From the NCBI RefSeq assembly GCF_001748285.1, contig NZ_BDGT01000027.1, positions 1-64,000 of the forward strand: a DNA stretch of 64,000 nucleotides. The letters are read 5' to 3'. The DNA comes from Thermogemmatispora onikobensis (GTDB taxonomy: Bacteria; Chloroflexota; Ktedonobacteria; Ktedonobacterales; Ktedonobacteraceae). Position 1 is the stretch's first letter. Each line of letters opens with the position of its first letter. The notes under the pieces are model-generated. The model was given only the letters and a program-made list of their open reading frames with translations, made no database searches and was not told the origin of the DNA. This document shows positions 24,640 through 54,240 of the stretch, piece after piece. The translations under genes were made by a program, and so were the position numbers.

Positions 24640-25785
24640 TCAAGCCAGTTGCTCAAGTACCCGGAAATCATGGGGATGGAGCAAGACCCAGATCCTCTTA
24701 CGCCTAGCGGGGGCACGTACCAGTGTCCCCGTCACGCTGACCAGGCGTCGATCGCGATGAGCATCGCAAGCAAGTGCATACTGGGAGGATTCGAGGGAGA
24801 GGTGCAGAGTACCCAGTTCAGGACTTTTCAGGCGTACCTGTCCTCGCTCTGTATCCTCCCAGTGTAATTCAGTGATCACGCCAGTGATTGTCTGCTCCTT
24901 TCCACTGCTTCCATCCTGGCTGGCTCGCAGGAGCTGAGCAGCCTTTTCAAGGTAGGGGATTGAAGAGCGATGCAGCTGCAAGGGAGGAAGATGAGAGAGG
25001 TCACTAGGAGCAGACAAGAGAGGCGACCAGCTAACAGAGTACTCCACGGCGGTATCACCAACCACCCTGAGCATTTCGGCAACCGCGCTGCACATATTGG
25101 CATTCAATCCTTCTGAGTAGTGCTCGACTAGAAGTCGATCATCTCCTGCCCGAGCTGCAGTGCTAAGCATGAGCAGTCCTCTCGTAATCCGCTCGACGAC
25201 CCTCCTTCCAAGAGGAATGGGAGATCCTTCCAGAGAGGAAAACGGCAGCTGCCCTTGCTCACTGGTCACCGGGGCCTGAAGTACAAAACCGAAGCTCGAT
25301 TGATAGGTGTGACCGAATTGGAAACGTCTGGTGAACCTCCTGGCAGTAGCGGTTGGCTGCGCGAAATAGCGCTGTCCTATCAGTTCCATACAAGCAGAAA
25401 AGATAACCAGGTTTCTGCAGCCACTCAAGAAGGAAGACACGGTCTCTAGCGAGGGCAGCTCTGAGGATGAAATAAGCAAGCGCAAGTAAATGGCATCAGC
25501 ACTGGCTGCTTGAATGCGGCTAATGAGGGTGGTTGGAGGTACATGCTCAATCTCCGCCAGTCTGTGCAGAGCTTCGGTCAGGCGCAGCTCGGCTCCTCCC
25601 AGATCCTTCGAACGCGGTAACGCAATGAGCATCGGCTCACCCAGCTTATTGGCCGGACCGGCAAAGACCAGCAGCTGCTGGTCACTGTACTCGATCTGAC
25701 GCCAGCCATGCGCTTGCAGGTAAGCCTGGACATCGGCAATGCTCACCAAGTCAAGCGGGAGCTCCTCTAACGATCTATGCATCAT
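24640..25785 (-). CDS. Uncharacterised protein with C-terminal OB-fold-like domain
   Basis: I cannot assign this 381-residue protein to a named family. The N-terminus (VSIADVQAYLQAHGWRQ, then LLVFAGPANKLGEPMLIALP) looks like a small alpha/beta domain. The middle is helical. The last 85 residues (from EQTITGVITELHWED) have an alternating beta pattern ending in LVSVTGTLVR and HDFRVLEQL, which suggests an OB-fold and hence nucleic-acid or protein binding; this is inference. Its ATG overlaps the DUF4365 stop by four bases, so it is translationally coupled to the nuclease-like gene. It is the last gene of the helicase/transglycosylase run. Confidence 0.75.
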   Translation of the reverse strand: MMHRSLEELPLDLVSIADVQAYLQAHGWRQIEYSDQQLLVFAGPANKLGEPMLIALPRSKDLGGAELRLTEALHRLAEIEHVPPTTLISRIQAASADAIYLRLLISSSELPSLETVSSFLSGCRNLVIFSACMELIGQRYFAQPTATARRFTRRFQFGHTYQSSFGFVLQAPVTSEQGQLPFSSLEGSPIPLGRRVVERITRGLLMLSTAARAGDDRLLVEHYSEGLNANMCSAVAEMLRVVGDTAVEYSVSWSPLLSAPSDLSHLPPLQLHRSSIPYLEKAAQLLRASQDGSSGKEQTITGVITELHWEDTERGQVRLKSPELGTLHLSLESSQYALACDAHRDRRLVSVTGTLVRAPARRKRIWVLLHPHDFRVLEQLA

Positions 25786-26345
25786 AACCTTACCTTCGCT
25801 TGCGCCTCATCAAGCAGGCTGAGCAAGACTGCTTCCGTAAAGAGGTTCGCTTTAGGGATATAGATTGTTTTAGATCTTACCTGATCAATTTCAACACGTC
25901 CTTGAGGCTTCCAATAGTAACAACACTTGTAGATGCTCAGGCATTCCTCACTTTGATGCAGCCAGTGATCAATACTTGGTGGCAGGCAGAGTAGTAATAG
26001 AACAGAAAAGATGCTGTTCACGAGCTTGCGATAGTTTTTTGCAGGGAGATCATAAACGATATAGTCTCCTCTGAGGCGGTAGTTGCGCGAGGCTTTCAAT
26101 TGCGCATCTACCATCATGCTGCCACTATCGTCGATCTCGCCGTCGATTATCCTTGGCCTACGAAAAGAAATATCGATGCCATAATCCCTCTTCAGGAGCG
26201 AGTAATTGACACCAGCTCTGGCGGCAAGAGCCAGGACATATGCCAGGCTGAGCTCCTCGGCACGATGGGCCTCTGGCATCATCGAGGGTGTAGGAGGCGA
26301 GGGCGAAGCGGGAGAGAAAAGGTCGGCCCTCTCTTCAGTTGCCAT
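25782..26345 (-). CDS. DUF4365-like protein, putative PD-(D/E)XK nuclease fold
   Basis: The 187 residues match the DUF4365 pattern. An acidic strand (RDYGIDISF) is followed by a strand ending in Q-x-K (MVDAQLKAS). Then come YIVYDLPAKNYRKLV, a hydrophobic strand with LLCLPPSIDHWL, and an aromatic YYWKPQG. The D...Q-L-K arrangement is a variant PD-(D/E)XK nuclease core, so a DNA-cleaving role is plausible. Proteins of this kind are frequent in defence islands. The ATG has AGGAG seven bases upstream and lies 34 bp after the helicase gene. The cluster context suggests it acts with the helicase on incoming or unmodified DNA (inference). Confidence 0.72.
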   Translation of the reverse strand: MATEERADLFSPASPSPPTPSMMPEAHRAEELSLAYVLALAARAGVNYSLLKRDYGIDISFRRPRIIDGEIDDSGSMMVDAQLKASRNYRLRGDYIVYDLPAKNYRKLVNSIFSVLLLLCLPPSIDHWLHQSEECLSIYKCCYYWKPQGRVEIDQVRSKTIYIPKANLFTEAVLLSLLDEAQAKVRL

Positions 26346-26379
26346 GGCTCAACTCCTATCCTGAACCTATCAGGCGGCT

Positions 26380-29300
26380 TTAGAGAAGGAAGAGCGCCCA
26401 CTCCTGTTCTTGACGATCCAGTGGCCAGCAAGCCACAGTTTCCAGTCCCAGACTGGCTGCTTCAGCGTGTAGCTGATCAACCTCGCTCCGCGAGGTACGG
26501 CGTAGCAGCTGCCGTACGAGGGCCTCCCCCACGCGGCGACTGACATATGGCGCTTGCCTGTAACGTCCTCGGCAGCAAGTTGTGACATAGATACAGACAG
26601 GACAGCCATCGTGTGCGTGGCAGGAGAGTTTGCTACTCTCGTCCTCTGCAAGCTGGTCGCCGCCATACTGACGGGTCCATTCTGCCTCGTCAGCAATCTG
26701 ATCGATGACCACCTGCCCCGAGAACGTCTGGGCAAGGGGTTCCATGGGTCCAATGGACAACAGCCAGCTGCGCGCAAACTCCTCACGCCAGCCCTGCTCC
26801 ATTGGCTGCTGGGGGTCCTCTGCCAGGTTAATCGGGCAAAGCACAGAGGCCAGCAAGGCTTGATAGACTTCCCTCGGTCGCGTTTTCAGGGCATGGGCAA
26901 ACACCTCCGAGAGTCCAGCACCGCCCTCATAGCCTTCCCAGACAACTACCTCACACCGCTGGACATCATACCAGTACTCCAGTGCCTGCTCATTGACGCC
27001 ACTCATAGTAGCAATAGTTTTGTAGAGCATATGAGCAGCAGTATGGAGAATCAGCTCGCTGTCCAGATGCTTGGGCTGCCCCTGTACCTTGATCTGGCCA
27101 AGCTCCTGGTGGAGCTGCTGATCAGTGAGTAGCGTCGTGACGAGATTCTGAAGCTGCCAGCGAATCCCATCGGTAGTGAGGTCGTAGCGCAGGGGGATCT
27201 CATAGCGAGCCAGGAAGGAGAGCGGTGGCCTCTTTTGCGGAACATAGTGCCCGTTGGCTTCCGGAAGCATCCGACGCGCGGAGACCTCTGCCCCTTCGAC
27301 TATCGTCACGCCTTTCATGGTCTTAAGAAGACTGAGGGAGAAAGTGAGTCGTCGCTCTGCTGGGCCAACCGTGTAGCTGCGCTTTATCACCGGAGATGCC
27401 TGCAACGTTACGTAACGAAGCTGCGAGTCACAGCAGTGGCGTGTACGACTGATACTATAAATCATGCGACAATTCTCGCACATCTTAACGACTTGCTGCC
27501 CTTGCTTATCCGTCTCTAAAGTTCTTACAGAGACCTTATATGGCGCGAAAAACTCGGCGTGATGCAATCCCTCAGCCCCTCGAAGCCGAATGGTGATTTC
27601 GTGGTCGCTACTTCGCTCCGGGAGAGGGACAACGTCTATGGTTGAGATATGACGAGCGTAGTAGCGATAGAGCGTTCTGTAAGGAGTGAGCGCATTGGCA
27701 AGTACGCCGATGTTCTCTAGCTCAACCTTGGTTTCGGGCTCTACTCCCTCCCCTCTAACCAGGCTGGCATTGACAAGAATTGGCTTTGTGGCCAAGAAAT
27801 AACCCTCTGGCAAGAGATACTCCACCCTGTAATTGCAAGCGTTGTCACTAATATCGTCCAGGTGGAGATAGAAGCTAGCCTGCAGCACAATTTTCATAGC
27901 CTCAGGTGGATAGCGAAGGATTCTCTTATCCTTAAAAAGCTCTTCTAGTTTGAAAAAGAATTTGTATAACCTTTCTACATCACTAAAATTTTTTATTCCG
28001 TTATCAGCAACATTTTTCCACAAATCAGCCATTCTACTAATTATATATGAGATCCTTTCAATGGTATGTCTGTCTTTAGTACTATACAGAAGATGCGACA
28101 GATAGTCATTCATCTTGAGGAAATGTCGTGAGATCTCCTCAGAGGAGGAATCCTCTTGCTTTAGGAAATCCAGGCTCAAACGTGCAGTTTCTTCCAGTGT
28201 GCATATTTCATCTTCTACATGATCTATAAGTGATTTTATCCCTAATTTATATTCCAAATCTACTTTATTGATATTTATCCACTTTTTCAAAAATTTCAAC
28301 TTTTCCTCTAAAGATGCGTCACTATATTTAGTTATATCATTTTTATAATATTGATTAATTATACCACAATTACTAATATTATCCCAGATCCATTGCAGCA
28401 ATCCTTTCTCCACCTTGTGCAGAGAGGTATAGGCAGCTAATTCCTTCCGCTTTCTTGAGATGATACCATGTATTGAGGAGATAACAGGATTGTCAGTCTT
28501 CAGCGGCAGCTCGTAGCTGCCCTCGATCAGCCGCCTGTAATGGCGGAGGTAGAAATGGCTAATCGGGGAGGTATCCAAGACCAGCATGCTATAGGCAGTC
28601 GAGCGCCAGCCCCGACCGGCTCGGCCACGCCTCTGAATAAAGGAAAATAGAGTGTGAGGAATAAGATACTGGATGACAGCTTGAATACGACTATCATCAA
28701 CGCCAATTTCAAAAGCTGCCGTAGCTAGTATAATATCCTCGTCGTAATGAGCGGCTTTAGCCTTAGATGTCACTTCCACTATTTTCAATGGTTGTATATG
28801 CAGATCAGGGAGTTCGCTGGTGCACTGCCCGCCTGCAGGCAGGCCACGCCAGCACTCGCCCTGCTCATAGATGCGACAAGAGGCTGGAGCTGTACGCGGA
28901 CACCGACGCTGGTTGAAGCAGAGCTGTTCCAGGTTACAGCGAAATGACCAGAGCCGGCGCTGCTCCTCGGCATCGCTGATCTGCGCACGGAATCTGCCGA
29001 CCATATCCAGGGAATCACAGAAGACGGTGCTTCGCCCCTCTCCTCTGAGAAGGGCATGACCCACGGCCATCACTGTCTGAATCAGTAAGGAGGAGGCCTC
29101 TACCCGCTCTTCGGGCTTCTGCAAGACATAGAGTAGCTCAAGGCCTGTCGGTACGCTGCTGTCATCTTCAGCCTTATGCACAACAAGCTGGTCAGACTTC
29201 CCTCCATAGAATAAGTTGGCGGCAAACCTCTCAGGCTCAAGAATAGTTGCACTTGCTGCTAACTTGGCAAGCGCTTGACCATCTCTGAGTTCCTCAAGGC

Positions 29301-30438
29301 GCCTCAGCATATGATGGATATGAGATCCGTAGATTGAGTGATAGACGTGAGCCTCATCAAGTACAATACCAGCTATAGATTTGATGTAGTTCTCAAACTT
29401 CTCTAGAGGATATATAGATATTTGATCAAAGGATTCAGCAGTCGTAATCAGCAGATGCGGCATCAGATCGGCATGATAGTTCCTTCCAATAGAGATATGA
29501 AAATTTGCTCCACAGCTATTACATTTCAATAGCGTATTCTTCCTGTTATTGTATTTTTTAGGATCTAATTCGTAATGGCCTTTTTTACAAATCACACATT
29601 TATCTATATATCTGAATGTATAACCTTCAAAGATCTCACTGTTTTCAAGGGCAGACTCGGGGTCTGGTCCCACCCCACCAAACTGGAAACCTATCGTGAT
29701 ACGTTTCCCTTTAGGAGGGACAGCCCCACCCCAGAGGCTCTTTAGGCTTATTTCCAACTCGGCGCGATACACATAGCGCAGGGCCCGCTCCAGTTGGTCC
29801 TTCAGCAAGGTGACTCGCGGATAGAGCAGAACGAAGCGCGGCACCTGATTGGCAGGTACTTCTTCCGCCAATTGGCGAGTAATCTCATAGATAATAGGCA
29901 GCAAGAAAACCTCAGTTTTACCGCTCCCTGTGGGAGCAGTAATCACCATACCCTGACGATGGCGGATGACTTCCAGCGCTTTTTTCCAGCCCTCGACTTG
30001 GAAAGTAGAGACACGGAGTTCCCCCTCTCTAGCAGCGGTGCTACTGTCCTGATGCTGCTGCTCCTCTTCACTGGGCCTCAAGAGTCGAGCAATCATCTCA
30101 AGCTCTCCTGGCAGATCTTCCAGGCGAAGAAGGCGCGGCGGTCGCCGCCTTACCAGCGCTTCCATACGCATATGCTCCACCAGTGATCTCGACGGCCCCA
30201 ACGCATCGAAGCGCTGTCGGAGCTGCTTCAGAAGGCGAACAAGTTCTATCGCCCGAGGCAAAAGGATGTCTCCTCCCAGAGCAACGAATTCCTCCCTCAG
30301 CTCTTCCCTCTTACAGAGAGGCTCTATACGCTGATGATAGCGTTCCCAGAGCAAGTTTGGCGGGGGAAAATCGCGAGCGGTTATGATATCTCGCATCATA
30401 TCCTGAAGCAGGTCCCGCATCTCCTCATAGGGGGACAT
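26380..30438 (-). CDS. Large DEAH-box helicase with C-terminal cysteine cluster (MrfA/YprA/DUF1998-like)
   Basis: The protein has 1352 residues. Walker A (TAPTGSGKT) is near 165, the DEAH box (VLDEAHVYHS) near 360, motif III (AASATI) follows, and motif VI (QRRGRAGRGW) is near 600. Two CxxC pairs between motifs I and II (CVICKKGH and CNSCGANF) suggest an inserted zinc knuckle. The C-terminal third contains HTAAHMLYKTI, an EGYEGGAGL motif and a terminal CPVCIYVTTCC cluster. This is the plan of COG1205/MrfA-like DNA helicases and of helicases in DISARM and dpd islands. The ATG at 30438 has AAGGAGAAGG upstream. The open frame runs 111 codons further into the neighbouring gene, but that extension is noise. 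Residues about 680-830 are encoded by strikingly AT-rich DNA, a sign of transfer. Confidence 0.88.
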   Translation of the reverse strand: MSPYEEMRDLLQDMMRDIITARDFPPPNLLWERYHQRIEPLCKREELREEFVALGGDILLPRAIELVRLLKQLRQRFDALGPSRSLVEHMRMEALVRRRPPRLLRLEDLPGELEMIARLLRPSEEEQQHQDSSTAAREGELRVSTFQVEGWKKALEVIRHRQGMVITAPTGSGKTEVFLLPIIYEITRQLAEEVPANQVPRFVLLYPRVTLLKDQLERALRYVYRAELEISLKSLWGGAVPPKGKRITIGFQFGGVGPDPESALENSEIFEGYTFRYIDKCVICKKGHYELDPKKYNNRKNTLLKCNSCGANFHISIGRNYHADLMPHLLITTAESFDQISIYPLEKFENYIKSIAGIVLDEAHVYHSIYGSHIHHMLRRLEELRDGQALAKLAASATILEPERFAANLFYGGKSDQLVVHKAEDDSSVPTGLELLYVLQKPEERVEASSLLIQTVMAVGHALLRGEGRSTVFCDSLDMVGRFRAQISDAEEQRRLWSFRCNLEQLCFNQRRCPRTAPASCRIYEQGECWRGLPAGGQCTSELPDLHIQPLKIVEVTSKAKAAHYDEDIILATAAFEIGVDDSRIQAVIQYLIPHTLFSFIQRRGRAGRGWRSTAYSMLVLDTSPISHFYLRHYRRLIEGSYELPLKTDNPVISSIHGIISRKRKELAAYTSLHKVEKGLLQWIWDNISNCGIINQYYKNDITKYSDASLEEKLKFLKKWININKVDLEYKLGIKSLIDHVEDEICTLEETARLSLDFLKQEDSSSEEISRHFLKMNDYLSHLLYSTKDRHTIERISYIISRMADLWKNVADNGIKNFSDVERLYKFFFKLEELFKDKRILRYPPEAMKIVLQASFYLHLDDISDNACNYRVEYLLPEGYFLATKPILVNASLVRGEGVEPETKVELENIGVLANALTPYRTLYRYYARHISTIDVVPLPERSSDHEITIRLRGAEGLHHAEFFAPYKVSVRTLETDKQGQQVVKMCENCRMIYSISRTRHCCDSQLRYVTLQASPVIKRSYTVGPAERRLTFSLSLLKTMKGVTIVEGAEVSARRMLPEANGHYVPQKRPPLSFLARYEIPLRYDLTTDGIRWQLQNLVTTLLTDQQLHQELGQIKVQGQPKHLDSELILHTAAHMLYKTIATMSGVNEQALEYWYDVQRCEVVVWEGYEGGAGLSEVFAHALKTRPREVYQALLASVLCPINLAEDPQQPMEQGWREEFARSWLLSIGPMEPLAQTFSGQVVIDQIADEAEWTRQYGGDQLAEDESSKLSCHAHDGCPVCIYVTTCCRGRYRQAPYVSRRVGEALVRQLLRRTSRSEVDQLHAEAASLGLETVACWPLDRQEQEWALFLL

Positions 30439-30458
30439 GGCCTTCTCCTTTCCAACAA

Positions 30459-32321
30459 CTAGCCGTCTGCCTGTTCGAGCTGTATGAGAATGGAAGCAAC
30501 GAGCTCCTCCAGATACTCCCGGCGAAAGAAGGCGGTCAGTCGACGGGCTTTCGGTTTGCAGGGCAGCACCTCCAGCCGGCCCGTGCGGCGCGCCGCCAGC
30601 TCCATCGCCTGCCGGTAAGCTCGACTCGTCGCATACCCCAGGCAGGCCACGTAGTGCTCTCCCCAGCGCTCCAGATAGCGAGTCAGCCGCCCGGCAACGA
30701 GCTCGATTTGCTGCTGGTTGCTTCCCTCCAACCGGAAGTCGTAACCCAGCACTTCTGGGGCCTGCTCCCACTCCTCGGGCACCGGCCCATACAGGCCCGA
30801 GAGCGTCACCCAGTGAATGCCGTGCAGCTGCTCACCAAGTGCCGCCTGCAGCCGCTCTCTGACGTAGCGGTGCGTGCGCGACTGCGAATAGGGTTTCTCT
30901 CCCGAGCAGGGCAACACCAGCAACAGGCGCTTGTCCACCGGGGGAGCATAGCCATTGCTGACGATGTTGAATGCCTCGGGGGTGTAGGCCAGGGAGACGG
31001 CCCGACGGCCACCGGTCCCCGCTGGCAAGCTGGGCTGACTGGTCCCACCAAACGAACGCCTCGAGCCGAGCCGGCGCAAGCGCTCGTCTCGCTGCTGAAG
31101 CCGGGCCAGAGCCTCTCGGAGGCGCTCATGCCCCTCCACCCAGCGCAGCAGAAAGTCCGCCAGGGCGTCTGCTGCCACCGCCTGGCGCACCTCCTCCACC
31201 AGGCGGAGATCTTGCTCGAGATTGTGCAGCGCCACCTCGGCATAATAGCGGCTCTTATAGGACCCGTTCTCTAATGGGCGACCCGCTGGGGTGAGGGATG
31301 TCAGCCCCGCCTGCAGCTCCGCGAGCGAGCTGGTCTGACACACCGGGCAGCTACAGGTCCACTCTTGCAACTCCAGGACCGGCACAAAGTGGTGCCTGAC
31401 TGGATCGTGATAGCGCAGGCTGCGCGCCATCTGCACGTAGGTACTGGAGTCAAAGGTATCCACTCCAAGATAGGCGAGCAGCGGGATGAGCGTGCCTGTG
31501 ACCCCAAACAGGTGCACCGGGGTCGTGGGCCGCTCGGCTGCCGGAATGCCCTCGATGGCGGCCTGCACCAGGTCGATGATGGTCAGCAGCTTCTCGGCCC
31601 CCCGCAGGCGCAACGGCACCAGCGAACCGATGGCAATCCCCAGCGGGATGCGCTGCAGTCCCTCGGCCTCGCGCAGCGCAAAGACGCGCTGCACCGCGTG
31701 GCGCAGGTCGTCGGGGGTCTGCCCATGGACCGCCGCATACACGAACGGGGGAGGGCCAGACTGCTCCGCCAGCAGGCGCAGGGTGATCCCCACATTGGCC
31801 AGACTGCGCGCCATACGCGCCTCGGCCTCTGCGCGCACCAGCCCGGATGGGAGCGGATAATCGAGGGTGGCAAGGAGACTGGCCCCGAAATCCTGCTGCA
31901 GGTGAAGAATGGTCTGCGGCGTGGCCTCCAGTCCATAGCGCGAGAGGTCCAGCTGGCTGTTCCACAGCAGCCGGAAGCCTCCAGAGTCACAGAAGAGAGG
32001 CGCCCGATAGTGCAGCTCAGGAAAGGCGGCCTGATAGTGCTCGCGCAAGGGGCGCTGCCGCCAAAAAGCCAGCCACTTGGGGCGAATGGAAAAATCAAGG
32101 AAGTGGAGGACCTGGGTCATGATGGGCCTCTGCTGGCGCAGCAGCCCATGTGGATGAGCCTGCAGCACATATTTCCAGATTCCTCCTCCGCGCGGCGTGG
32201 TGCCTGTGATCAGGGAGGCAACAGGAAAGAGTGTCGGCGTCTCCAGATCTCCTTCGCTGAGTCGAAAACATCCAGAACGCGGACCCCTCTCGCGGCAGCC
32301 GCGGAATCCCACAGTGGTCAT
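30459..32321 (-). CDS. DpdA/ArcTGT-like 7-deazaguanine transglycosylase with C-terminal ArcS-like domain
   Basis: The 620-residue protein begins with a TGT-type fold (LETPTLFPVASLITGTTPRGGG near residue 25). The catalytic aspartates are present: CDSGGFR near 110 and GVDTFDSS near 287. The zinc site CSCPVC is near 325. The last 160 residues open with LLLVLPCSGEKPYSQSRTHR and contain LSGLYGPVPEEWEQAPEVLGYDF, the pattern of the DUF5591 core of archaeosine synthase. TGT enzymes swap guanine for a 7-deazaguanine; DpdA members do this in DNA. ArcS adds an amine-bearing group to preQ0. The DNA-target reading rests on the neighbouring helicase and nuclease-like genes; a tRNA target is the alternative. 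ATG 32321 or an in-frame TTG at 32354 may be the start. Confidence 0.85.
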   Translation of the reverse strand: MTTVGFRGCRERGPRSGCFRLSEGDLETPTLFPVASLITGTTPRGGGIWKYVLQAHPHGLLRQQRPIMTQVLHFLDFSIRPKWLAFWRQRPLREHYQAAFPELHYRAPLFCDSGGFRLLWNSQLDLSRYGLEATPQTILHLQQDFGASLLATLDYPLPSGLVRAEAEARMARSLANVGITLRLLAEQSGPPPFVYAAVHGQTPDDLRHAVQRVFALREAEGLQRIPLGIAIGSLVPLRLRGAEKLLTIIDLVQAAIEGIPAAERPTTPVHLFGVTGTLIPLLAYLGVDTFDSSTYVQMARSLRYHDPVRHHFVPVLELQEWTCSCPVCQTSSLAELQAGLTSLTPAGRPLENGSYKSRYYAEVALHNLEQDLRLVEEVRQAVAADALADFLLRWVEGHERLREALARLQQRDERLRRLGSRRSFGGTSQPSLPAGTGGRRAVSLAYTPEAFNIVSNGYAPPVDKRLLLVLPCSGEKPYSQSRTHRYVRERLQAALGEQLHGIHWVTLSGLYGPVPEEWEQAPEVLGYDFRLEGSNQQQIELVAGRLTRYLERWGEHYVACLGYATSRAYRQAMELAARRTGRLEVLPCKPKARRLTAFFRREYLEELVASILIQLEQADG

Positions 32322-32424
32322 ATTCTTCCCATCTTCACCCTCATATTTGTGCAAAAAGGCAGGCTCTCCTTTCCGGGGACGGCCATCGGTTTCCTCTGAC
32401 TTTAGAGGCTACTTTTTAAAAAAA

Positions 32425-35633: not shown

Positions 35634-36728
35634 CTAGCTAAACAGGACAGGCATGGTCAGATCGCTGTAGGTGCCTTTCCTTCGCCCTTCCGACCCATAG
35701 ACCACAATCTTCCCCTTCTCTTCCAGCAGGCTCAGGCTCGACTTATACTTGAAAAATGCGGTATCGGCAATAACAAATTCTTCGATATCATCAACAGTAA
35801 CTCTTTTTCCTCTAAAATGATCGTAAATCTCTTTAGCCAGAATTGCTGGATCATCGTTATGAAGCAAGAATCCCTGTCCCATTCCTGTACAGTCGGAGAA
35901 GACAAAGTTACCCGTTGGGTCAACCTTCCACATCGCCCGTTTCATCTCTTTCATCCCTCGACGATGCTTTGTGGCAAAGAAGAGAAAATAATCAGTTGTA
36001 TTTCTACTATTGCGCATACAGAATGAGCGCACGTAGCGAGCGCCAGCGACAGTTAAGAGCTGCTGGCGATAGAGGTCGTGCAGGCGCCGCTGCCGTGTCT
36101 GGACATCGGGGGCATCAAGGGTGATTGTCTGCCATGCGGTGGTACCGAAGAGGGAGTCATAATGTTGCTGCTTGGTCCTGTAATCAGCTTCCAGAAAACG
36201 ATTGATTTCCTCATGCATGAAGGTGATCAAGACCTCACAGCGAGGGCAGGCCATCAGGTTGCGAATAACATCCATAGGTGCATGGGAGAAGCCAAATGGA
36301 TCGATAAAGACAAACATGGCATCATAGCGCCTGCAGCCGCTAGCCAGAAGACTGGTCATTGCATCTACAAATCTGCCCGTATATACCTCGTAGGTCGCTG
36401 TGGACGGCAGCGGCTGGTACTGCAGATGGGCCTGGAGCTTCTGTCGAAGATGAGCCGCCCGCTTTGGATCAAGCTCCACAAAGAGAAACTTCACTGTACC
36501 CCGTTGGAGAGAAGCAGCACGATGCTGCTGATACGCGCTGATCATAATGAGCGGCGAGCCGATTTCTCCTCCAACGTACTCCCCCGGACCGGCAAAACCA
36601 TCGATCAGCAATCCGCTTCTTCCCTCACGGATAAGGATCGGGAGCCAGGCATCCAGGTATTTGCGCAGAATGACGTGTTTCGCACGCGTGTGATCATCCA
36701 GCTTCCAGATCACTGACTGCGGAGCCAT
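35634..36728 (-). CDS. tcmP: Three-Cys-motif partner (TcmP) family protein
   Basis: The protein has 364 residues. The start (VIWKLDDHTRAKHVILRKYLDAWLPIL) and LLIDGFAGPGEYVGGEIGSPL near residue 40 are diagnostic of TcmP. FVELDPKRAAHLRQKL and FVFIDPFGFSH near 139 follow. D-G-F-A-G-P-G and D-P-F-G sit where a Rossmann methyltransferase has its SAM site and its DPPY motif, so an enzyme acting on nucleic acid is plausible but unproven. The C-terminus (KRVTVDDIEEFVIADT...) looks like a winged helix. TcmP genes typically neighbour a protein with a three-cysteine radical-SAM-like motif; here such a gene lies 264 bp upstream. ATG 36728 has AAAGGAG. Parts of the gene are AT-rich. Confidence 0.82.
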   Translation of the reverse strand: MAPQSVIWKLDDHTRAKHVILRKYLDAWLPILIREGRSGLLIDGFAGPGEYVGGEIGSPLIMISAYQQHRAASLQRGTVKFLFVELDPKRAAHLRQKLQAHLQYQPLPSTATYEVYTGRFVDAMTSLLASGCRRYDAMFVFIDPFGFSHAPMDVIRNLMACPRCEVLITFMHEEINRFLEADYRTKQQHYDSLFGTTAWQTITLDAPDVQTRQRRLHDLYRQQLLTVAGARYVRSFCMRNSRNTTDYFLFFATKHRRGMKEMKRAMWKVDPTGNFVFSDCTGMGQGFLLHNDDPAILAKEIYDHFRGKRVTVDDIEEFVIADTAFFKYKSSLSLLEEKGKIVVYGSEGRRKGTYSDLTMPVLFS

Positions 36729-36992
36729 TACGCGCTCCTTTCTAGCTCGCCGCTTCTGGCCATCCCCTCCCTGGACAAGACGAGTCACACCACCCTCCTC
36801 AGCCAGGCCCTTCGGAGACAGCGAAGCAAGCAGTATACGCCGAGATCAGAGCTTGCAGCACTCCTCGGATCTTCAAATTTTTAATAAACAAACCGCACTA
36901 TCAGTTTTATCTCTCTCTCTATCGGAGTATACCTAATGACAGGTTCTTTGACAAGAGAAAATCTCCTAAGATAATCAAGCGAGCATTAAAAT

Positions 36993-38453
36993 CTACTTCT
37001 GTAGAGTGTGATTGATGACAGGAAGCGGGCCGCGCTGTAGCTGAGCACGGAGCCGATAGCTGATGTGGCAGGCGCAGGGCATGCTGCTGATCACCCCGGC
37101 TTTGAGGAACTGCAGGGCTTCCCGTGGGTCCGCCTTGCAGGGGGTGGTTTGCACCTGGCCGAGGCCGTAGCGCTCCAAGAGCAGCCGCACCCACTGGTAG
37201 AGCCGTTGCTGCCGCGCCGCCGACGGGCGATATTTGTGCGCCACCACCGCCGGCTCCAGCTCAGCGAGCAAGGGCGTCACCTGTTCCTCGGGCAAGCTTG
37301 ACTTGAGCAGCCGTGGCATCTGCGGCGAGAAGCGCAGAATATCCACGGTCATCCGCTTGAGCCGCGGCCCCAGGATGTCGCGGATCTGGGCAAACAGCTC
37401 GTGATAGGCCGCGCGGTAACCCGCCACGGGAATGATTGGCCCCAGCCGGATCGTATGATCGAAGGCGCCATGATCAATAGCCCAGGCCAGGCCGCCCAGG
37501 CGCTCCTCCGGAAGGGCCCCGCCCGGCTCAAACTGCGCCGAGATGACTGCCGGGTTCAGGCTGATGGCCACGAGGGCCAGCCGGCCATCGAGCTGCAAGT
37601 AGGGCTCGTAGACCCCCTTGGTCAGGAAGAAGGAGACGATCCCGCGCGCACTGGAGAGATCCAGAATGGTCTGCACCAGCGAGCCGCGCCCCTGCTCATC
37701 GACGAACCAGGGATCTTCCTCGACAGGGCCGCCCAGTTCCGCCCAGTTGACCACACTGCCCCGCGGCAGACGGTCCAGCTCGGGGATGACGTCTTCCAGA
37801 TTGAGCGCCACGCTCTTGAGACCCATCCCCTGTAGGCCGCGCAGGTAGCAGAAGCTGCATTCGACCGGGCAGACGCCCTGGGCGTAGTTGCCCCGCAGGA
37901 AGCCGCGAATCGGTTCGGCCTCCCGCTCCTCCTCGCGGGAGCGGGAGCCAGCGATCCAGGTCTGGCGACCCCGACGGTAGGCCACAATCGGCGTCCAGGC
38001 CCCACAGGTCGTGCCAGCCCCACCGACAAAGGGGGCAATGAACTGCGGGGTGCCGGCCCCGCCGCGCCGAATGAGCAGGAGGAGACGCGCCTTGCGCTGC
38101 GCTTCATCCTCGGCGGGCCAGAGCTGCCGATGCAGCGTCAGCGCCTCACGTGCCACCTCGCTCCGACTGCCGAGACGCCGCAGATGGACCGCCGCCACCA
38201 GCGGCGCCAGGCGCTCCGCGGCGGCGCTCGCCTGCTCTTCTTCCTGCCGGCTGTGGGCGTGCAGCAGCAGGTGAGCGGGACGCGCCGGCGCCAGCCGGCG
38301 GCGATTCGCGAGCAGGCGAGTCGCCCGCTCGCCCGCCACACCACTGGCCACGGCAGCGTCCAGGACCACCAGATCAATCTCCGCCAGCCGTCGGAGCATC
38401 GATGGCTCCCCCAGCATTCTCTCTTTTTCACAAGTTATATGCTGCGTCATCAT
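36993..38453 (-). CDS. Spore-photoproduct-lyase-like radical SAM protein
   Basis: The protein has 486 residues from the ATG with AGGAG eight bases upstream; the open frame extends 30 codons further without support. The iron-sulfur motif is C-P-V-E-C-S-F-C (about 191-198), within NYAQGVCPVECSFCYLRG. This is the CX3CX2C spacing and context of spore photoproduct lyase, COG1533. ISLNPAVISAQFEPGG resembles the SPL radical-SAM barrel. The N-terminal 170 residues are Ala/Arg-rich and unlike SPL. SPL-type enzymes repair a thymine photoproduct in DNA, so a nucleic-acid substrate is a reasonable guess. As the first gene of the island and neighbour of tcmP it may be the three-cysteine partner. Confidence 0.8.
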   Translation of the reverse strand: MMTQHITCEKERMLGEPSMLRRLAEIDLVVLDAAVASGVAGERATRLLANRRRLAPARPAHLLLHAHSRQEEEQASAAAERLAPLVAAVHLRRLGSRSEVAREALTLHRQLWPAEDEAQRKARLLLLIRRGGAGTPQFIAPFVGGAGTTCGAWTPIVAYRRGRQTWIAGSRSREEEREAEPIRGFLRGNYAQGVCPVECSFCYLRGLQGMGLKSVALNLEDVIPELDRLPRGSVVNWAELGGPVEEDPWFVDEQGRGSLVQTILDLSSARGIVSFFLTKGVYEPYLQLDGRLALVAISLNPAVISAQFEPGGALPEERLGGLAWAIDHGAFDHTIRLGPIIPVAGYRAAYHELFAQIRDILGPRLKRMTVDILRFSPQMPRLLKSSLPEEQVTPLLAELEPAVVAHKYRPSAARQQRLYQWVRLLLERYGLGQVQTTPCKADPREALQFLKAGVISSMPCACHISYRLRAQLQRGPLPVINHTLQK

Positions 38454-38695
38454 CGAGTACTCTCCTTGTAGTAGCGCCCCTGGCCTCCCCCATCCCTCCT
38501 TGCCCCTCCAGAGCCTGCGGCTCTTCCGTGGCCGATCGTACAAGTTGACAATAAATCGAATATTTGTTCAAGATCGTCTTAATTATACCCGAGCACGAGG
38601 ACGAAGTCGAGAGAGCAGAGACAACGGGCTAGAAAAACATCAGCGAGCACCCATCTGGCCCCCTGAACGCCCCCCATTTTGGCCCAGTTTCCATC

Positions 38696-47939: not shown

Positions 47940-49634
47940 TCAGCCTTCTACCCAGCCTGGGCCGGCAGCCAGAGGAGCCAGGCCCCCCTGAGCCAGCACA
48001 TGCAGGGTAAAACGGGCTGCATTGCTGGCAGCCTTGCGCTGCCGCCGCTCCTTGTTCACATGCTTGAAGCCATCGGCCCAGTCGGCAATGGCCTTGACGA
48101 GAATCCAGTCAACTTTGTGGTGCTGGGCCGCCGCGCACAGGCCGGCCCCCTCCATCTCTCCGCCGATGGCTTCCGGCTCCAGCGTCTGCAGCTGATCGCG
48201 ATATTCCCTGTCATTCACCAGCTTCTCGCCAGAAAGCAGCAGGCCAAAATGGACACGCTGTCCTGACCAGCTCTTGACGCCGCTCCTGAAGCGGTCCAGC
48301 AGCAGCGGCGAGGCGGTTACCCGGTCGCCACGCGGGCGTATGCTGCGCTGGCCTTCACGGGCGACTACGGCCTGCTGCTCATAGGCCAGGACCTGGCGCG
48401 CCACCAGGATGTCGCCTATGTTCTGCTCATCAGGCTTGAGACCAAAGGCGATGCCCACCATGATAACTGCCCGCGGCTGTAGATGACGAATGCCTTCGCT
48501 GACCGTGAGTAGAGAACCTCCTACACCACCCTGTCCCATCTCGGACTGCACCATCATCAGACTGACCCCACCGACTTCGCCCAGGAGGTAGTAGGTCTTG
48601 TGCTCAATGTAATACCGCTCAGGCTGCGGGAACAGGGCTAAGACCTCCTGGGCTTCGACTTCGGTGACCGTCACAAGCAGCACATCGGCACGTGGCTCAT
48701 GTTGCAACGATGACAGGCTCCCAGTGGGGAGCGCTGCCGGCGGGGAGAAAGGGCTCTGCTCTCTGGCCCGCCCGAAGGAAGTGCCTGGGAGAGCGGCACG
48801 CTGCCCCTCCAGCTCGGTCACTCTGACGACCTCCTGCATGGACGCAAGCAGGGCTTCTAGCTCAGCAAAGAAGGTTGCAGGTTGCCCACAGGCTCCGCAG
48901 ATGAGAAATGGCGCACTTTCCCTATGGCGCGCTTCGATGATCCTGAGCAGCCGATCATCCTCAGCCGGAGCCTCCGGTAAAACATAATAAATGCTGCTGC
49001 GACTGGTCGTACTCAGGAGCCGCAGAATCCCCTCTTCCTGACTAGGCGGCCCTATCACAATCAGATCTTCGTTGAGCTCCCGCTCCAGGATCTCACGCAG
49101 CGGATAGCGGAATTCGAGTAAATCAGGAAAATCAGGAACGAGGAGACCAGCCTCCAGACTCCCAAAGAGGTTTAAGAGGAGAATCCCATTCCCGCGCGCA
49201 TGATCTTTCAGCTTTTCCTGAAGATAGGCTTCGCTCTCACGCCCTAGCACGAGCTGAGAGAGCTGCTCTGACCCGACTTCTTCGCTGGCAAAGGCGCGCC
49301 CTAGCAGTGTATCGACCCCGCTGGCCAGGATGGTCGTAAAGTAGCCCTGCTTACAGAGGCGAGCCAGGGAACGATAGCCATCCAGGTCTTGGGACGCCGC
49401 TCGCAGAGAGAGCGCATGCGCCAGGACCCCCAGGCGATCACGCGGGCCGAGCTGATGCAGGTATGCCCGGAAGTCGCTCCAGCTCTGGCTGTGACAGATC
49501 GCCTGGCGTATCTCCACGGTCAGACTGGCGGCCAGGGTGAGTACGAGACGATAGGGCTGAAGCCCCTGCCGTTTGCGCAGATTGAGCAGCCAGGCCAGCC
49601 GTGTCAGGGCTGGTGACATCGCTGTTTCTTCCAT
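47940..49634 (-). CDS. Degenerate SIR2-like domain fused to a nucleoside phosphorylase/nucleosidase domain
   Basis: Residues 25-200 follow the SIR2 pattern but key residues are changed. The NAD loop reads LTLAAS (32-37), the TTNxD motif reads TILASGVD (101-108), and the catalytic histidine position in LNLFGSL is F157. From about 315 to 545 an MTAN/PNP-type domain follows: GGVSLMMVQSEMGQGG, VIMVGIAFGL, the ribose-binding IGGEMEGAGL and the catalytic-aspartate region VKAIADWAD, all intact. The second half should cleave or phosphorolyse a nucleoside or nucleotide. Such domains serve as effectors in bacterial NLR-like conflict systems. AGGAGG lies five bases before the ATG. It is the last gene of the STAND cluster, 144 bp after the radical SAM gene. 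Confidence 0.82.
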   Translation of the reverse strand: MEETAMSPALTRLAWLLNLRKRQGLQPYRLVLTLAASLTVEIRQAICHSQSWSDFRAYLHQLGPRDRLGVLAHALSLRAASQDLDGYRSLARLCKQGYFTTILASGVDTLLGRAFASEEVGSEQLSQLVLGRESEAYLQEKLKDHARGNGILLLNLFGSLEAGLLVPDFPDLLEFRYPLREILERELNEDLIVIGPPSQEEGILRLLSTTSRSSIYYVLPEAPAEDDRLLRIIEARHRESAPFLICGACGQPATFFAELEALLASMQEVVRVTELEGQRAALPGTSFGRAREQSPFSPPAALPTGSLSSLQHEPRADVLLVTVTEVEAQEVLALFPQPERYYIEHKTYYLLGEVGGVSLMMVQSEMGQGGVGGSLLTVSEGIRHLQPRAVIMVGIAFGLKPDEQNIGDILVARQVLAYEQQAVVAREGQRSIRPRGDRVTASPLLLDRFRSGVKSWSGQRVHFGLLLSGEKLVNDREYRDQLQTLEPEAIGGEMEGAGLCAAAQHHKVDWILVKAIADWADGFKHVNKERRQRKAASNAARFTLHVLAQGGLAPLAAGPGWVEG

Positions 49635-49778
49635 TGTTTCCTCCTCTCTGCTGGCTCAGGCTGGCTGGCTAGCTGGCAGGCCCGCATCTTGCCTTGCTTG
49701 CACTGGCACGCAGAACAGATGGCCAGAGCTGAGCCAGACCACGGGGAAGGAAGAGAGGGCCGCCCTCTCCCTCTCAGA

Positions 49779-51335
49779 CTAGAAAGCAAGCGGCGTTCCA
49801 TATTTGAGCACACGCAGAGCCTCCAGGCGGAGCACGTCCGGGAAGAGGGCTTGATAAATGGCACAATTTGGCGATCGGACATCGAGTCGTCCAGTCAGAC
49901 GAAAAGTCAACAACGGGCAGCCGCCCGCGCACCAATAACGCCAGCGGCAGGCTCGACACCCCTCTTTCTCATCGATCGGGACAGCGCGCAGTCCCCCGGA
50001 GGAGCAACGCACCGCCTCCAGTGGGTCCTCAGCAGCAATGGTGGTCACCGTCTGCCCGAGTGCAGCATGACAGCGCGCCACGCCTCCGTGCTGATCGATT
50101 ACCAGATAGTTGTGTCCCACACCACAGGCATAGCGAGAGCCAAGGCCGGGATGGGTCCGATCGAGCAGCGAGCCGAACAACTGGCGCCGCGGTAGATGCT
50201 TCTCGATCACCGCAAAGGCGGCTCGCATGCCCGCAATCATCTCTTCCTCCTCAAACTGAAGATATTCAATATTAGTAGCGCAATCATTCTCACGGTAGTA
50301 GCTGAGCGTAAAGGGCAAATCGAGCGCTAGCAAATACTCGAGCAGAGCGGGCAGTCCGGCGAGATTGCGCCGCGAGACAGTGACATTCACCGAAGGGGGC
50401 CAGCCTGCGGCCAGCAAGCGATCGAGAGCGCGCTCAACATAGGCGAACGAGCCTTGACCATGCACAAAGGGACGTTGCAGGTCGTGTTGCTGACCGAGGC
50501 CATCGAGCGAGAGCATCACCCTGATGTGCCGCTCTTTCAGGGCAGCGATTGCCCGCTCGCTCAGGGCCACGCCATTCGTAAGCAGGGAGGCGCTTACTCT
50601 GAGGTGGGCCTGCTCTCCCAGGGAGAGGGCGTAGTCATGCAGGGCCAGCACCTGGCGGAGGCGCAAGGCTGGCTCGCCGCCGGCGTACTTCAGATGCACC
50701 GCCCGATAGCCGTGGCGCCGCGCGGAGCGAAAGACGGCCTCGACTGCCTGTCTGGCGGTCTCCTCAGTCAGGTGCTCGGAGCTTTTGCGGACATAGCAAT
50801 ACTGGCAAGCAAGATTGCAAGCGTTAGTAATATGAAGCCAGGCAGAGAGCGTCATGCCGTTACCTTTGTGCTCGGAAGAGCCGCCCTGGACTGGCCTGGC
50901 AGCCACGGGTAACAGCAAGCCCAGTCCGACCAGCAAGCGCAGCAGCGAGAGCAGGCTCTCCCTGGGCACCTGTGAGAAAGATCGCGCGGCCTCGGCGGGC
51001 GAGGCTGGCTGCTCAAAGAAGCGGAGCAGAGCCAGGGCCTCGCCATCCAGGACGGCCAGGTGGAATGCTGTTAGCTGCTCGGGATCACAGACCAGCCAGC
51101 ACCCGGGAGTGCACTCTTGCCGATAGAGAGAAGGGGACATCCGTAGCCGGCTCGAGTCGTTGTGAAGATCGCCAGGCTTCTCTTCCAGCAGCAGCGGCTG
51201 ATCGCTCCGGCTGCACAGCGCTTCGTTGTCTTCACCAAGACTACACTCATCGGGAGGCCGGCACTCGCAGTCGCTAGGGACCCCAACCTCTTGAGAGGCG
51301 CTCCCGAGGGGATCAAAATCAATCCAGACGTTCAT
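49779..51335 (-). CDS. Radical SAM/SPASM enzyme, putative peptide maturase
   Basis: This 518-residue protein has its radical SAM cluster at C173, C177 and C180 (NACNLACQYCY). YAGGEPALR follows, and a C-terminal SPASM region has CGVGHNYLVIDQHGGVARCHA and CRACRWRYWCAGGCP for auxiliary clusters. Residues 85-145 look like a winged-helix/PqqD-like peptide-recognition domain. SPASM enzymes cross-link or modify ribosomal peptides or proteins. The first 66 residues are Cys/Asp/Glu-rich (C23, C25, C31, C41) and unusual; Met66 is an alternative start. No obvious precursor-peptide gene is adjacent. The substrate could be a neighbour in the cluster or this N-terminal segment (speculative). Confidence 0.85.
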   Translation of the reverse strand: MNVWIDFDPLGSASQEVGVPSDCECRPPDECSLGEDNEALCSRSDQPLLLEEKPGDLHNDSSRLRMSPSLYRQECTPGCWLVCDPEQLTAFHLAVLDGEALALLRFFEQPASPAEAARSFSQVPRESLLSLLRLLVGLGLLLPVAARPVQGGSSEHKGNGMTLSAWLHITNACNLACQYCYVRKSSEHLTEETARQAVEAVFRSARRHGYRAVHLKYAGGEPALRLRQVLALHDYALSLGEQAHLRVSASLLTNGVALSERAIAALKERHIRVMLSLDGLGQQHDLQRPFVHGQGSFAYVERALDRLLAAGWPPSVNVTVSRRNLAGLPALLEYLLALDLPFTLSYYRENDCATNIEYLQFEEEEMIAGMRAAFAVIEKHLPRRQLFGSLLDRTHPGLGSRYACGVGHNYLVIDQHGGVARCHAALGQTVTTIAAEDPLEAVRCSSGGLRAVPIDEKEGCRACRWRYWCAGGCPLLTFRLTGRLDVRSPNCAIYQALFPDVLRLEALRVLKYGTPLAF

Positions 51336-51505
51336 TCGTGCGTGTCACCCCACTGAATGGAAGAACTGAGCGCGTGCGGCTACCAGAAGGATCGCACTAC
51401 ATACAAGACCTGCGGCGACAGCGCTTGACGCCTGGAGGTCAAAGAACCGAACCAGAGGCCAGCCGGCCTAGCCAGCGCCTGCCCGCCGGGAGAGCCAGCC
51501 GTCAA

Positions 51506-54223
51506 CTAGCCTGGCACGCCCAGCAGCTGGGCAATCTCTCCGCAGGCCTTGGGCAACTCAGGATAGCGCTCCACGAGGCCACGCTGGTGCCAGCCTTCAC
51601 TCACTATCTGAGCTGCCAGAGGCACCTTTTCCAGGGGGAGAGAGAGCAGCCGTCCCAACAGGCGCCGCTGTGCCTTGTGATATTCCAGGAAATTGTGTTG
51701 AACCATCCAGGCACAACTTTCCACATAATGCTGGAACGCCTCCCCAAAGCGACCCGCTGCCAGGGCCAGACTGCCCAGCACCTCCTCGCCGCGCCCCAGC
51801 AGCAGACGGTACCCCTCTTCCTCCGCGATGGCCCGCGCCTCCTTCCAGGCCACCTGCGCCTCTTCGTGCTGCCCCAGACGGCCCAGCGCCTCGACCAATT
51901 CGCAGAGGCTGGCCACCAGCTGGTAGCGATCCTGCAGGTGACGCGCATGCTCACAGGCACACTGCCAGTGCCTCGCCGCCTCCTGCCAGCGCCCCCGCTC
52001 CGCCGCGACCCGCCCCTGATAGTAGTGGCTGTTGATGAAGACCTCCTCATCAAAGCCGGTCACCAGCGCCTCAGCCTGGCGAAACAAGGCATCGGCCTCC
52101 TCCAGCTCTCCCCTCAGCAGCGCCACCTGTCCCAGACGAACATAGGTGGCCGCCACTCCACTGCGGTAGCCCACATGCGCGTAGCATTCAAAAGCCCGGT
52201 GGAAGTGCCGCTCGGCCTGTAGCAGGTCCTCACTCTCCAGATAGATCATCGCCAGCGTGCTGTGGGAGAGACCCACCGCCCGCTCATCCAGCCTCCCCTC
52301 GTGCCAGAGGTCTTCCCGCACCCGCAGGCCCACCAGGCAATACCGGAGGGCCTCCTCAATGCGCCCTTGGAGCCGATAGACCTGGCCGATGCTATTGAGC
52401 ATATTCGCATACCAGGCCCGGCTGCCCTGCTGCTGATGATAGACCAGGGAGGCGCGATAGCAGCGCAGCGCCTCGTCCCACTGCCCCAGCCGGCGATACA
52501 CATAGCCCAGCTGCCCCTGGAGCGTGCTGGCTTCTTCCTCATCGCCGCGGCGCCGGGCCAGCTCCAGACACTGCTCGTAATACCTGATAGTCTGCAGGAA
52601 CTGGTTTTGCTGCAAGGCACAGCGTGCGAACTCATAGGCCAGCTCTGCCTGGTTGGTCTCCAGCCAAGAGGGGTCCGCCTCCTGCTGCAAGCGTTCCAGG
52701 AGCTCCTGCGCCAGCGCTGGCTGCTCCTCAATGCGCAGCAGCTGGGCCTCCCACACCCGGAGCAGCCAGCGCTGCGGCGAGGTCAGGAGCGGTTCACATT
52801 CCCGCACGGTCTCCAGCAGCGTGCGCGCGAAGCCGCTGCGCCAGCCGACCGTGGCGGGTCCAAAGAGCCGTCGAAAACGCCGCAGGCCCTCCTCAACATC
52901 GAGCGTCAACCAGTGAGCCAGCAGCTCCACGCGGCTGGCCTGCCATTCTTGCTCCGAAAGGGCCTGCTCGTTCTGCTGTTCATAGTAGCTGATCACGGCC
53001 CGACTCAGCCCGCGGCGAAAGCGCCGGTCGGGGTCCTGACGCTCCCAGCAATAGTGCACCACCAGGCGGCGCATCTCATCATGCAGAGCCAGCTCATCCC
53101 CCTCACCCGCAGCACGCACGAACGAGAGCTGCCGCAGAGCTGCCAGCCACTCCTCAACAGAAACCTGCTCGCCGTCCTCTGTCAGCTTGACCTGCGTCAG
53201 CAGCCAGGCGAGCAGAGGGGCAGAGAGACGATGGTAGACATGGGCCAGCACCAGAATCAGCCAGTTGAGCGGACGCTCCAGATCGTTAATGCGTACGACA
53301 AGCTGCTCCTCAAAGCGTCCTGGGGGGAAGGACACCAATTCAGTCAGCGTAAGCAGGCGCCTTGCCAGCAGATCGCAGGCCAAACCGACTAAAATAGGGC
53401 GACCCGCCGTCAGTTCATAGAGGCGCTCAACGGAACGGCTCTGGTCCTCCGCCGAGCCGACAGTCGCCCCGCCAGCCCCCGCCTCCTCATCAAGCAGGCC
53501 AGCCAGCTCGCGCTCGAGATAGAGACGTACCTCAGCGGCAGAAAAAGGAGGCAGCGCCAGGTCCAGCGCCTCCTTCTCGCGCCCGCGCCAGATCGGATGC
53601 TGCCAATCCAGGGGATTGCGACCCGCTAACAGGACCTTCACATGAGGCAGGCCATAACGCTCAGGAAAGAGCTGTCCCAGGCTCAACACCGCCACCTGGG
53701 GATTGCGCTCAACCAGTTCAAAAGTATCGAAGACGAGCAACAGCTGTGGCGCATCCGTCGGCACCAGTGGCAACAACTCCTCTACATCGCGCGCCAGGGC
53801 CTCTGAGAGACTATCACGAATGCGGATATCAGCCACATCCTTCTCCGGGTAGAGGCTGCTCAGATAGCCTTGCGTCGCAAAGGTCTCCAGCGTCTGGGCA
53901 AAAGCCTGCGCCTGCCAGCGCGGATAAGCCGCCTGGAGACGTTCAACGACGCGGCGCGCGATCACCAGGCGATCACGATCGGCGACACGGAAGAAATCCA
54001 CCTGGACAACGGCCAGATGCGGAAAGCGCTGCTGGGCAAGCGAGACACAGGCACGCAGGAACCAGGTCTTCCCAATGCCGCCCCGCCGAGCAGGGTCCGG
54101 CTCGGCATCATGAACAGAGAGAATCCAGGGAGCATCGGGCTGGACATTTGCCAGCCACTCCAGAAAGAGAGAAAGCTCACGATCTCGCCCGAGAAAAGCC
54201 TCGGGTACCCCTCGGCGTTCCAT
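51506..54223 (-). CDS. STAND NTPase with TPR repeats
   Basis: The 905-residue protein has Walker A RRGGIGKT (46-53), Walker B LLLVFDTFE near 180, and sensor-like VLLAGRNPLDW near 220, the NTPase plan of AP-ATPase/NLR proteins. A winged-helix-type middle region (LALHDEMRRLVVHYCW) follows. TPR repeats run from about 520 to 830 (FLQTIRYYEQCLELA, GQWDEALRCYRASLVYH, GRIEEALRYCLVGLRV, GELEEADALFRQAEAL). STAND proteins switch on by ligand-induced oligomerisation, the TPRs acting as sensor. No effector domain is fused, so the effector is probably a neighbouring protein. GAGGGG lies eight bases before the ATG. It follows the small ATPase gene by 17 bp. Confidence 0.9.
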   Translation of the reverse strand: MERRGVPEAFLGRDRELSLFLEWLANVQPDAPWILSVHDAEPDPARRGGIGKTWFLRACVSLAQQRFPHLAVVQVDFFRVADRDRLVIARRVVERLQAAYPRWQAQAFAQTLETFATQGYLSSLYPEKDVADIRIRDSLSEALARDVEELLPLVPTDAPQLLLVFDTFELVERNPQVAVLSLGQLFPERYGLPHVKVLLAGRNPLDWQHPIWRGREKEALDLALPPFSAAEVRLYLERELAGLLDEEAGAGGATVGSAEDQSRSVERLYELTAGRPILVGLACDLLARRLLTLTELVSFPPGRFEEQLVVRINDLERPLNWLILVLAHVYHRLSAPLLAWLLTQVKLTEDGEQVSVEEWLAALRQLSFVRAAGEGDELALHDEMRRLVVHYCWERQDPDRRFRRGLSRAVISYYEQQNEQALSEQEWQASRVELLAHWLTLDVEEGLRRFRRLFGPATVGWRSGFARTLLETVRECEPLLTSPQRWLLRVWEAQLLRIEEQPALAQELLERLQQEADPSWLETNQAELAYEFARCALQQNQFLQTIRYYEQCLELARRRGDEEEASTLQGQLGYVYRRLGQWDEALRCYRASLVYHQQQGSRAWYANMLNSIGQVYRLQGRIEEALRYCLVGLRVREDLWHEGRLDERAVGLSHSTLAMIYLESEDLLQAERHFHRAFECYAHVGYRSGVAATYVRLGQVALLRGELEEADALFRQAEALVTGFDEEVFINSHYYQGRVAAERGRWQEAARHWQCACEHARHLQDRYQLVASLCELVEALGRLGQHEEAQVAWKEARAIAEEEGYRLLLGRGEEVLGSLALAAGRFGEAFQHYVESCAWMVQHNFLEYHKAQRRLLGRLLSLPLEKVPLAAQIVSEGWHQRGLVERYPELPKACGEIAQLLGVPG

Positions 54224-54240
54224 AGCATGATCCCCTCACC

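Follow-up and report, generated by a model that had tools for sequence, protein, structure and literature searches.

A TcmP-family predicted methyltransferase and an SPL-like radical-SAM protein in Thermogemmatispora onikobensis as a candidate nucleic-acid modification module with an exchangeable partner

What might a TcmP-family protein do beside a radical S-adenosylmethionine (SAM) protein resembling spore photoproduct lyase (SPL)? The two genes stand together on the minus strand of a 64,000-nt stretch of Thermogemmatispora onikobensis contig NZ_BDGT01000027.1 (the window, analysed at its full length), where the open reading frame (ORF) of the SPL-like protein (36993–38543) comes first and that of TcmP (35634–36788) lies downstream. 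An earlier note on this DNA had picked out the pair and the CPVECSFC motif of the SPL-like protein, and both genes were located as it described, with a TIGR04474 match to TcmP (E 8.6e-60; 202.9 bits against a curated cut-off of 53) and remote SPL matches to the neighbour that exceeded chance. The three-cysteine-motif neighbour expected for a TcmP is thus present here as the adjoining CxxxCxxC protein. The pairing of TcmP with three-cysteine proteins is already known by name, and its version with DUF5131 is included in PADLOC. We favour, with a probability of roughly 55%, a reading of the pair as a module of two enzymes that modifies nucleic acid and whose radical-SAM half can be exchanged; such modules are often mobile and possibly serve in defence.

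The strongest sign that the two proteins work together was the repeated exchange of the radical-SAM protein beside the same methyltransferase. A census covered 60 other Chloroflexota regions, each surrounding a TcmP that scored over the cut-off; the places of the window's own family and G244 were examined separately, and nine further over-cut-off rows lay outside it (G344:C52, two pieces each of G335:C70 and G052:C69, G079, G383, G367 and G066). The adjacent gene coded for DUF5131 in 49 regions (48 with the full pattern and one partial copy), for an SPL-like protein in four, all over the Pfam SPL cut-off, and for neither in seven, five of which are no more than 100 bases from the end of their contig. 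DUF5131 itself matched the NCBI model "radical SAM mobile pair protein A" at E 6.6e-20, below the equivalog cut-off. It adjoined TcmP in all eight viral contigs and in six of eight plasmids, a sample of the 52 plasmid records with TcmP. The other two plasmids, both haloarchaeal, carried a third kind of partner (L201 1315–2364; L200 1316–2362), a radical-SAM protein featuring ATGCRHGCKFCYVP plus a cysteine upstream; it had neither the CK(E/A) nor the CxC motif of the window's protein described below. In a tree of 75 TcmPs the SPL-partner label changed five times, at least four of these changes being forced by well-supported branches, and the window's TcmP fell into a fully supported group that also contains DUF5131-paired TcmPs. 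This partner exchange, together with the RlmJ-like fold of TcmP described next, is new as far as the literature covered goes. Two TcmP genes were seen near one three-cysteine protein in Ktedonospora formicarum (L019 11562–13810) and on plasmids of Rhodococcus and Burkholderia (L198 and L203).

Its modelled structure makes TcmP a predicted METHYLTRANSFERASE of class I, dependent on SAM, with an RlmJ-type fold and motifs I and IV. The AlphaFold2 model built from 14 sequences (predicted local distance difference test, pLDDT, 84.9; predicted template modelling score, pTM, 0.86) had the Rossmann fold of methyltransferases, in which strand 1 leads into a glycine loop; it placed FAGPG behind this strand and DPFG at the fourth-strand position, bearing out the assignment of these elements to methyltransferase motifs I and IV in the earlier note. 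The best solved match in Foldseek was RlmJ, the 23S rRNA m6A2030 methyltransferase (E 4.7e-7). In the structural aligner the top ten rows were all RlmJ/DUF519 chains (Z 16.1–17.6, 209–213 residues aligned), followed lower in the ranking by the tRNA guanine-N2 methyltransferase Trm1 as the next-best fold family (Z 14.8) and CmoA (14.4); 974 of 1000 aligned chains reached Z ≥ 8, with methyltransferases leading. The comparison with N6-adenine methyltransferases that had been proposed for this protein thus put an rRNA adenine-N6 enzyme, RlmJ, nearest.

At the sequence level the likeness to RlmJ was confined to the motif I region, beyond which no sequence alignment was obtained; in the structural alignment, identity was about 16% over 213 aligned residues. 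With profile A3, hhalign found a local motif I match to E. coli RlmJ at probability 86 over 27 columns, compared with probability 13 over 23 columns for profile A4; in profile searches RlmJ appeared at a non-significant E of 0.17 with A3 and was absent from the A4 matches, and E. coli RsmJ gave no sequence match to TcmP. The two proteins also differ in that E. coli RlmJ has DPPY as motif IV (at 164) where TcmP has DPFG, and in the winged helix that TcmP adds. Trm1, whose motif IV is of the DPFG type, gave no sequence match to TcmP. Across an alignment of 19 diverse TcmPs, D and P of motif IV never varied; the next position was F, W or Y and the one after it G, A or T, a pattern that departs from the classical adenine-N6 form (D/N)PP(Y/F/W). 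The likeness to DNA methyltransferases proposed in the earlier note therefore held as regards a predicted SAM methyltransferase and not as regards the type: DPFG is not the classical DPPY, and with RNA enzymes as the closest folds, DNA is no more than a candidate target. The Pfam GMT-wHTH model matched the window's TcmP under its cut-off (E 0.0029) and a relative (L071) over it (28.3 versus 27), and the C-terminus of the model comprised three helices and strands; together, the winged-helix match and the model suggest that this end of TcmP binds nucleic acid.

The partner (P0002) proved to be a remote relative of SPL with a different set of cysteines. The SPL model TIGR04070 matched it at E 2e-5 and 23.7 bits, far under the cut-off of 400, and a profile of six orthologs (A1) picked up SPL chains of solved structure (E 2.9e-4) across a central region including CxxxCxxC; no Pfam model matched the protein at E 0.1, and no PADLOC model matched it. 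The three motif cysteines, C225, C229 and C232, were invariant among SPL-like orthologs, as expected of a radical-SAM protein. An alignment of seven TcmP-linked SPL-like proteins (A6), four of them only 20–25% identical to the window's protein, revealed four further invariant cysteines, C180, C469, C490 and C492. Taken as motifs, these amount to an upstream cysteine (no more than 60 residues from CxxxCxxC), CK(E/A) and CxC, a set complete in 11 of 11 TcmP-type proteins, while among 11 comparison proteins (four canonical SPLs and seven other matches) CK(E/A) and CxC occurred in none and the upstream cysteine in one. The canonical SPLs had four cysteines each. The upstream cysteine stands 45 residues from the motif in the window's clade and 12–14 residues from it elsewhere; given this difference in spacing, the two are likely, though not certainly, equivalent.

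The natural reading of the four extra cysteines is that they may hold a second, auxiliary iron–sulfur (Fe-S) cluster. The active site also diverged: at the column of the SPL catalytic cysteine, which acts as hydrogen donor, all 10 TcmP-type rows had Glu or Asp (Glu in P0002), whereas all but one of the four canonical SPLs had Cys. Like SPL, the TcmP-type protein follows CxxxCxxC with Y-L, keeping the aromatic residue after the third motif cysteine; unlike SPL, it has a methyltransferase for a partner. The SPL-type assignment of the earlier note therefore survives in the CPVECSFC motif and the remote similarity and fails at the active site, and an identity with SPL proper was rejected on the sub-threshold TIGR04070 score, the Glu/Asp column and the four extra conserved cysteines. 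By these cysteines an undescribed radical-SAM subfamily can be recognised from sequence; it is new within the literature covered. Whether the TcmP-type SPL-like proteins share a common origin was neither supported nor refuted by phylogeny (grouped in 16% of bootstrap trees), and homology between DUF5131 and the SPL-like proteins was not demonstrated by hhalign, which gave probability 10 over one short stretch with LTK.

A contig scan for the SPL-like protein returned nine loci, all in Thermogemmatispora, Ktedonosporobacter and Ktedonospora; among 400 genomes of the phylum, the single protein as query found relatives in nine, and a profile of seven diverse members extended this to 22 at E 1e-8, of which 15 scored ≥190 bits and were clearly set apart from the remainder, none of which exceeded 66 bits. 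TIGR04474 was found in 81 of the same 400. TcmP adjoined the SPL-like gene at 12 of the 14 places that could be judged, counting G050 with a truncated TcmP and G100, where the judgement rests on pieces from a pair of contigs; two further places at contig ends and a fragment (G100:C43) fall outside the 14. The first exception is a second SPL-like copy in T. tikiterensis (L017 10109–14941), after which come genes for an N6/N4-type DNA methylase and a protein resembling tyrosine integrases; in the second (G258; L161 1329–6408), the SPL-like gene stands beside two PP-loop genes resembling 3'-phosphoadenosine-5'-phosphosulfate (PAPS) reductase. The latter locus has the appearance of a mobile element. 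No match to the SPL-like protein was found among the phages or viral contigs searched, and on plasmids there were five matches, all annotated as spore photoproduct lyase family proteins. In two small genomes (L162 2333–4063; L116 1168–2802) the translated gene after the SPL-like one resembles 5'-methylthioadenosine (MTA) phosphorylase or class II aldolase; such enzymes could salvage 5'-deoxyadenosine.

The surroundings of TcmP connect it with mobile elements and possibly with defence. PDC-M30 and PDC-M41, PADLOC candidate defence systems proposed from guilt by embedding, each consist of DUF5131 and TcmP, and the window's TcmP matched PDC-M30A (E 1.6e-67) and PDC-M41A. The window pair likewise consists of two adjacent genes including a three-cysteine protein; it differs in having the SPL-like protein where those systems have DUF5131 (PDC-M30B/M41B). 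A published panel of 100 P. aeruginosa strains had PDC-M30 predicted in 32, and 68.8% of these were phage-resistant, a correlation only (PMC10855318); a published expression table lists a TcmP gene adjoining the Hna defence gene (PMC12445080). A Gordonia phage carries TcmP between an immunity repressor and a DUF5131 gene with an integrase near, and in G246 the SPL-like pair is flanked by an integrase-like ORF on one side and, on the other, by ORFs resembling type I restriction genes, all named from their translations. Flanks of TcmP pairs (109 ORFs, one per side where present) matched 299 PADLOC models, which are redundant, compared with 53 for 100 of 125 same-phylum control ORFs; all ORFs were called mechanically and some are surely spurious. 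Among the families listed, restriction-modification enzymes and helicases recurred at TcmP flanks and were commoner than in controls, and Pfam agreed in kind. The earlier note had looked to DNA-related neighbours as a check of its proposal, and the answer was mixed: these families exceed the controls, while most flanking genes are not DNA-related. In Thermogemmatispora a LacI-type regulator is the only DNA-related gene next to the pair. TcmP is unnamed in the portions seen of two comparative-genomics reviews of defence systems (PMC10853773, PMC12839542).

A mechanism consistent with these results would have TcmP bind SAM in its RlmJ-type Rossmann domain and nucleic acid partly through the C-terminal winged helix, and move a methyl or other SAM-derived group onto a base. 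The SPL-like partner would cleave SAM at the CxxxCxxC cluster, giving a 5'-deoxyadenosyl radical; aided by a second cluster on the four extra cysteines, it could carry out radical chemistry on the base that TcmP modifies, either ahead of TcmP or following it. This half of the module would be interchangeable: DUF5131 for most TcmPs, an SPL-like protein for some and another radical-SAM protein for the two haloarchaeal plasmid ones. Because of the frequent mobile carriage and the restriction neighbours, the likeliest biological role would be to protect the host from invading DNA or RNA, or to modify such nucleic acid or the host's own. The target leans towards DNA over RNA on account of the mobile carriage, the restriction neighbours and the DNA methylase beside the second T. 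tikiterensis copy, with the RNA enzymes at the top of the fold list weighing against this lean. More tentatively, and with less than even confidence, TcmP may be the constant half of a widespread base-modifying family whose swappable radical-SAM enzymes generate a hypermodified base that marks self or attacks invaders. TcmP and DUF5131 are common, mobile families, and the partner replacement and the RlmJ-like fold turn the modification module into a testable proposal.

Several observations weigh against the favoured modification module. The Thermogemmatispora pair occupies a fixed chromosomal site by metabolic genes, between an alpha/beta hydrolase gene and the LacI-type gene, with no defence island; the majority of genes flanking TcmP pairs, as noted, have no connection with DNA; and in T. 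aurantia (L014) residues 1–182 of TcmP are gone beside a nearly intact SPL-like protein, showing that the halves can separate. The closest solved relatives of TcmP act on RNA, and a fold alone shows no function. The structure model of the SPL-like protein was poor (pLDDT 53.3), too poor for a fold search or a TIM-barrel reading. Finally, no activity of TcmP or DUF5131, and no description of an SPL-like/TcmP pair, was found in the literature searched, which excluded most subscription journals and bioRxiv.

Some of these points would suit an RNA modification pair acting on tRNA or rRNA for translation, perhaps as a thermophile trait or on a target altered in phage infection: the top folds are RlmJ, then Trm1, CmoA and Trm5, and the site is fixed within the genus. 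We consider this unlikely, as the patchy spread (81 of 400 genomes), the phage and plasmid carriage and the restriction neighbours are unlike housekeeping RNA enzymes, and one SPL-like copy adjoins a DNA methylase. Even less probable is a DNA repair pair, in which the SPL-like protein would reverse the thymine photoproduct with TcmP as accessory. The remote SPL homology and the retained aromatic residue speak for it; the replaced hydrogen-donor column and the CK(E/A) and CxC cysteines, found in none of the four canonical SPLs, speak against it, and we know of no role for a methyltransferase partner in SPL repair. From the earlier suggestion that the pair modifies or repairs nucleic acid, modification thus remains the best guess, and repair is improbable.

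The pair could also belong to a nearby island and help to make a deazaguanine modification. The island (24640–32354, minus strand) comprises a TGT+DUF5591 transglycosylase, a DpdJ-like helicase and a PDC-M02B gene, and the corresponding site in T. aurantia and T. tikiterensis lacks it. The earlier note had tied the pair to this transglycosylase, and a spacing of about 3 kb in both the window and T. carboxidivorans is in favour. The link was rejected on distribution, and we regard it as highly improbable: in G050 and G140 the pair keeps its place with none of the three island genes, and among the 400 genomes the transglycosylase occurred in six and the SPL-like subfamily in 15, overlapping in just three, all of the window's own genus and one with a mere transglycosylase fragment, and leaving 12 with the SPL-like protein only and three with the transglycosylase only. 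In G116 and G328 the transglycosylase is present and no TcmP is among the TIGR04474 matches listed; G188 is likewise not among them. Genes of a Dpd system are conserved with DpdA, whereas the pair and this DpdA-like transglycosylase are distributed independently. The transglycosylase itself reached 13 bits against the DpdA model cut-off of 200 and was closer to the archaeal TgtA/ArcS models. A second copy in the same genome (G000:C29:10407–12221; L197) is 92% identical.

The features of the modification-module candidate are collected in Table 1. For TcmP, a GTG at 36788 extends the ORF, and the ATG at 36728, common to orthologs, was preferred; for the SPL-like protein, a TTG opens the ORF at 38543, the ATG at 38453 (the start in the earlier note) is an alternative, and the conserved part begins at the ATG at 38399. 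The gap of 264 bases between the SPL-like stop and the preferred TcmP start holds a promoter-like match, which suggests that TcmP may have its own promoter. A consensus scan gave a second such match upstream of the SPL-like gene and no terminator-like match in the gap. Ratios of nonsynonymous to synonymous substitution rates (dN/dS) were low, 0.08–0.12 for the SPL-like gene and 0.13–0.19 for TcmP, indicating that both genes are retained for function under purifying selection.

Table 1. Positions of the gene pair and its sequence elements in the window
Feature	Position	Strand	Basis
TcmP: predicted class I SAM methyltransferase with C-terminal winged-helix region	35634..36728	-	TIGR04474; PADLOC PDC-M30A; AlphaFold2 model; RlmJ-type chains
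FAGPG, motif I loop, residues 65–69, after model strand 39–43	36582..36596	-	Model; local RlmJ motif I match
DPFG, motif IV position, residues 163–166, after model strand 137–142	36291..36302	-	Alignment of 19 TcmPs; model
TcmP C-terminal winged-helix-like region	35694..35867	-	Weak Pfam GMT-wHTH match; model helices and strands
SPL-like radical-SAM protein with predicted auxiliary Fe-S site	36993..38399	-	Solved SPL chains; invariant cysteines
CPVECSFC (C225, C229, C232), radical-SAM cluster motif	37848..37871	-	Aligns with CxxxCxxC of solved SPL
C180, upstream extra cysteine of the SPL-like protein	38004..38006	-	Invariant in the seven-protein alignment
C469 of the CK(E/A) motif, SPL-like protein	37137..37139	-	11/11 TcmP-type proteins, 0/11 others
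C490 and C492, CxC motif, SPL-like protein	37068..37076	-	11/11 TcmP-type proteins, 0/11 others
Promoter-like match in the intergenic gap	36926..36954	-	10/12 consensus letters; consensus match only

Elsewhere in the window, at 47940–56719 on the minus strand, translations read as SIR2-type, STAND-type ATPase/TPR and nucleosidase-type proteins together with a SPASM-like radical-SAM protein, a group with the look of a conflict system.

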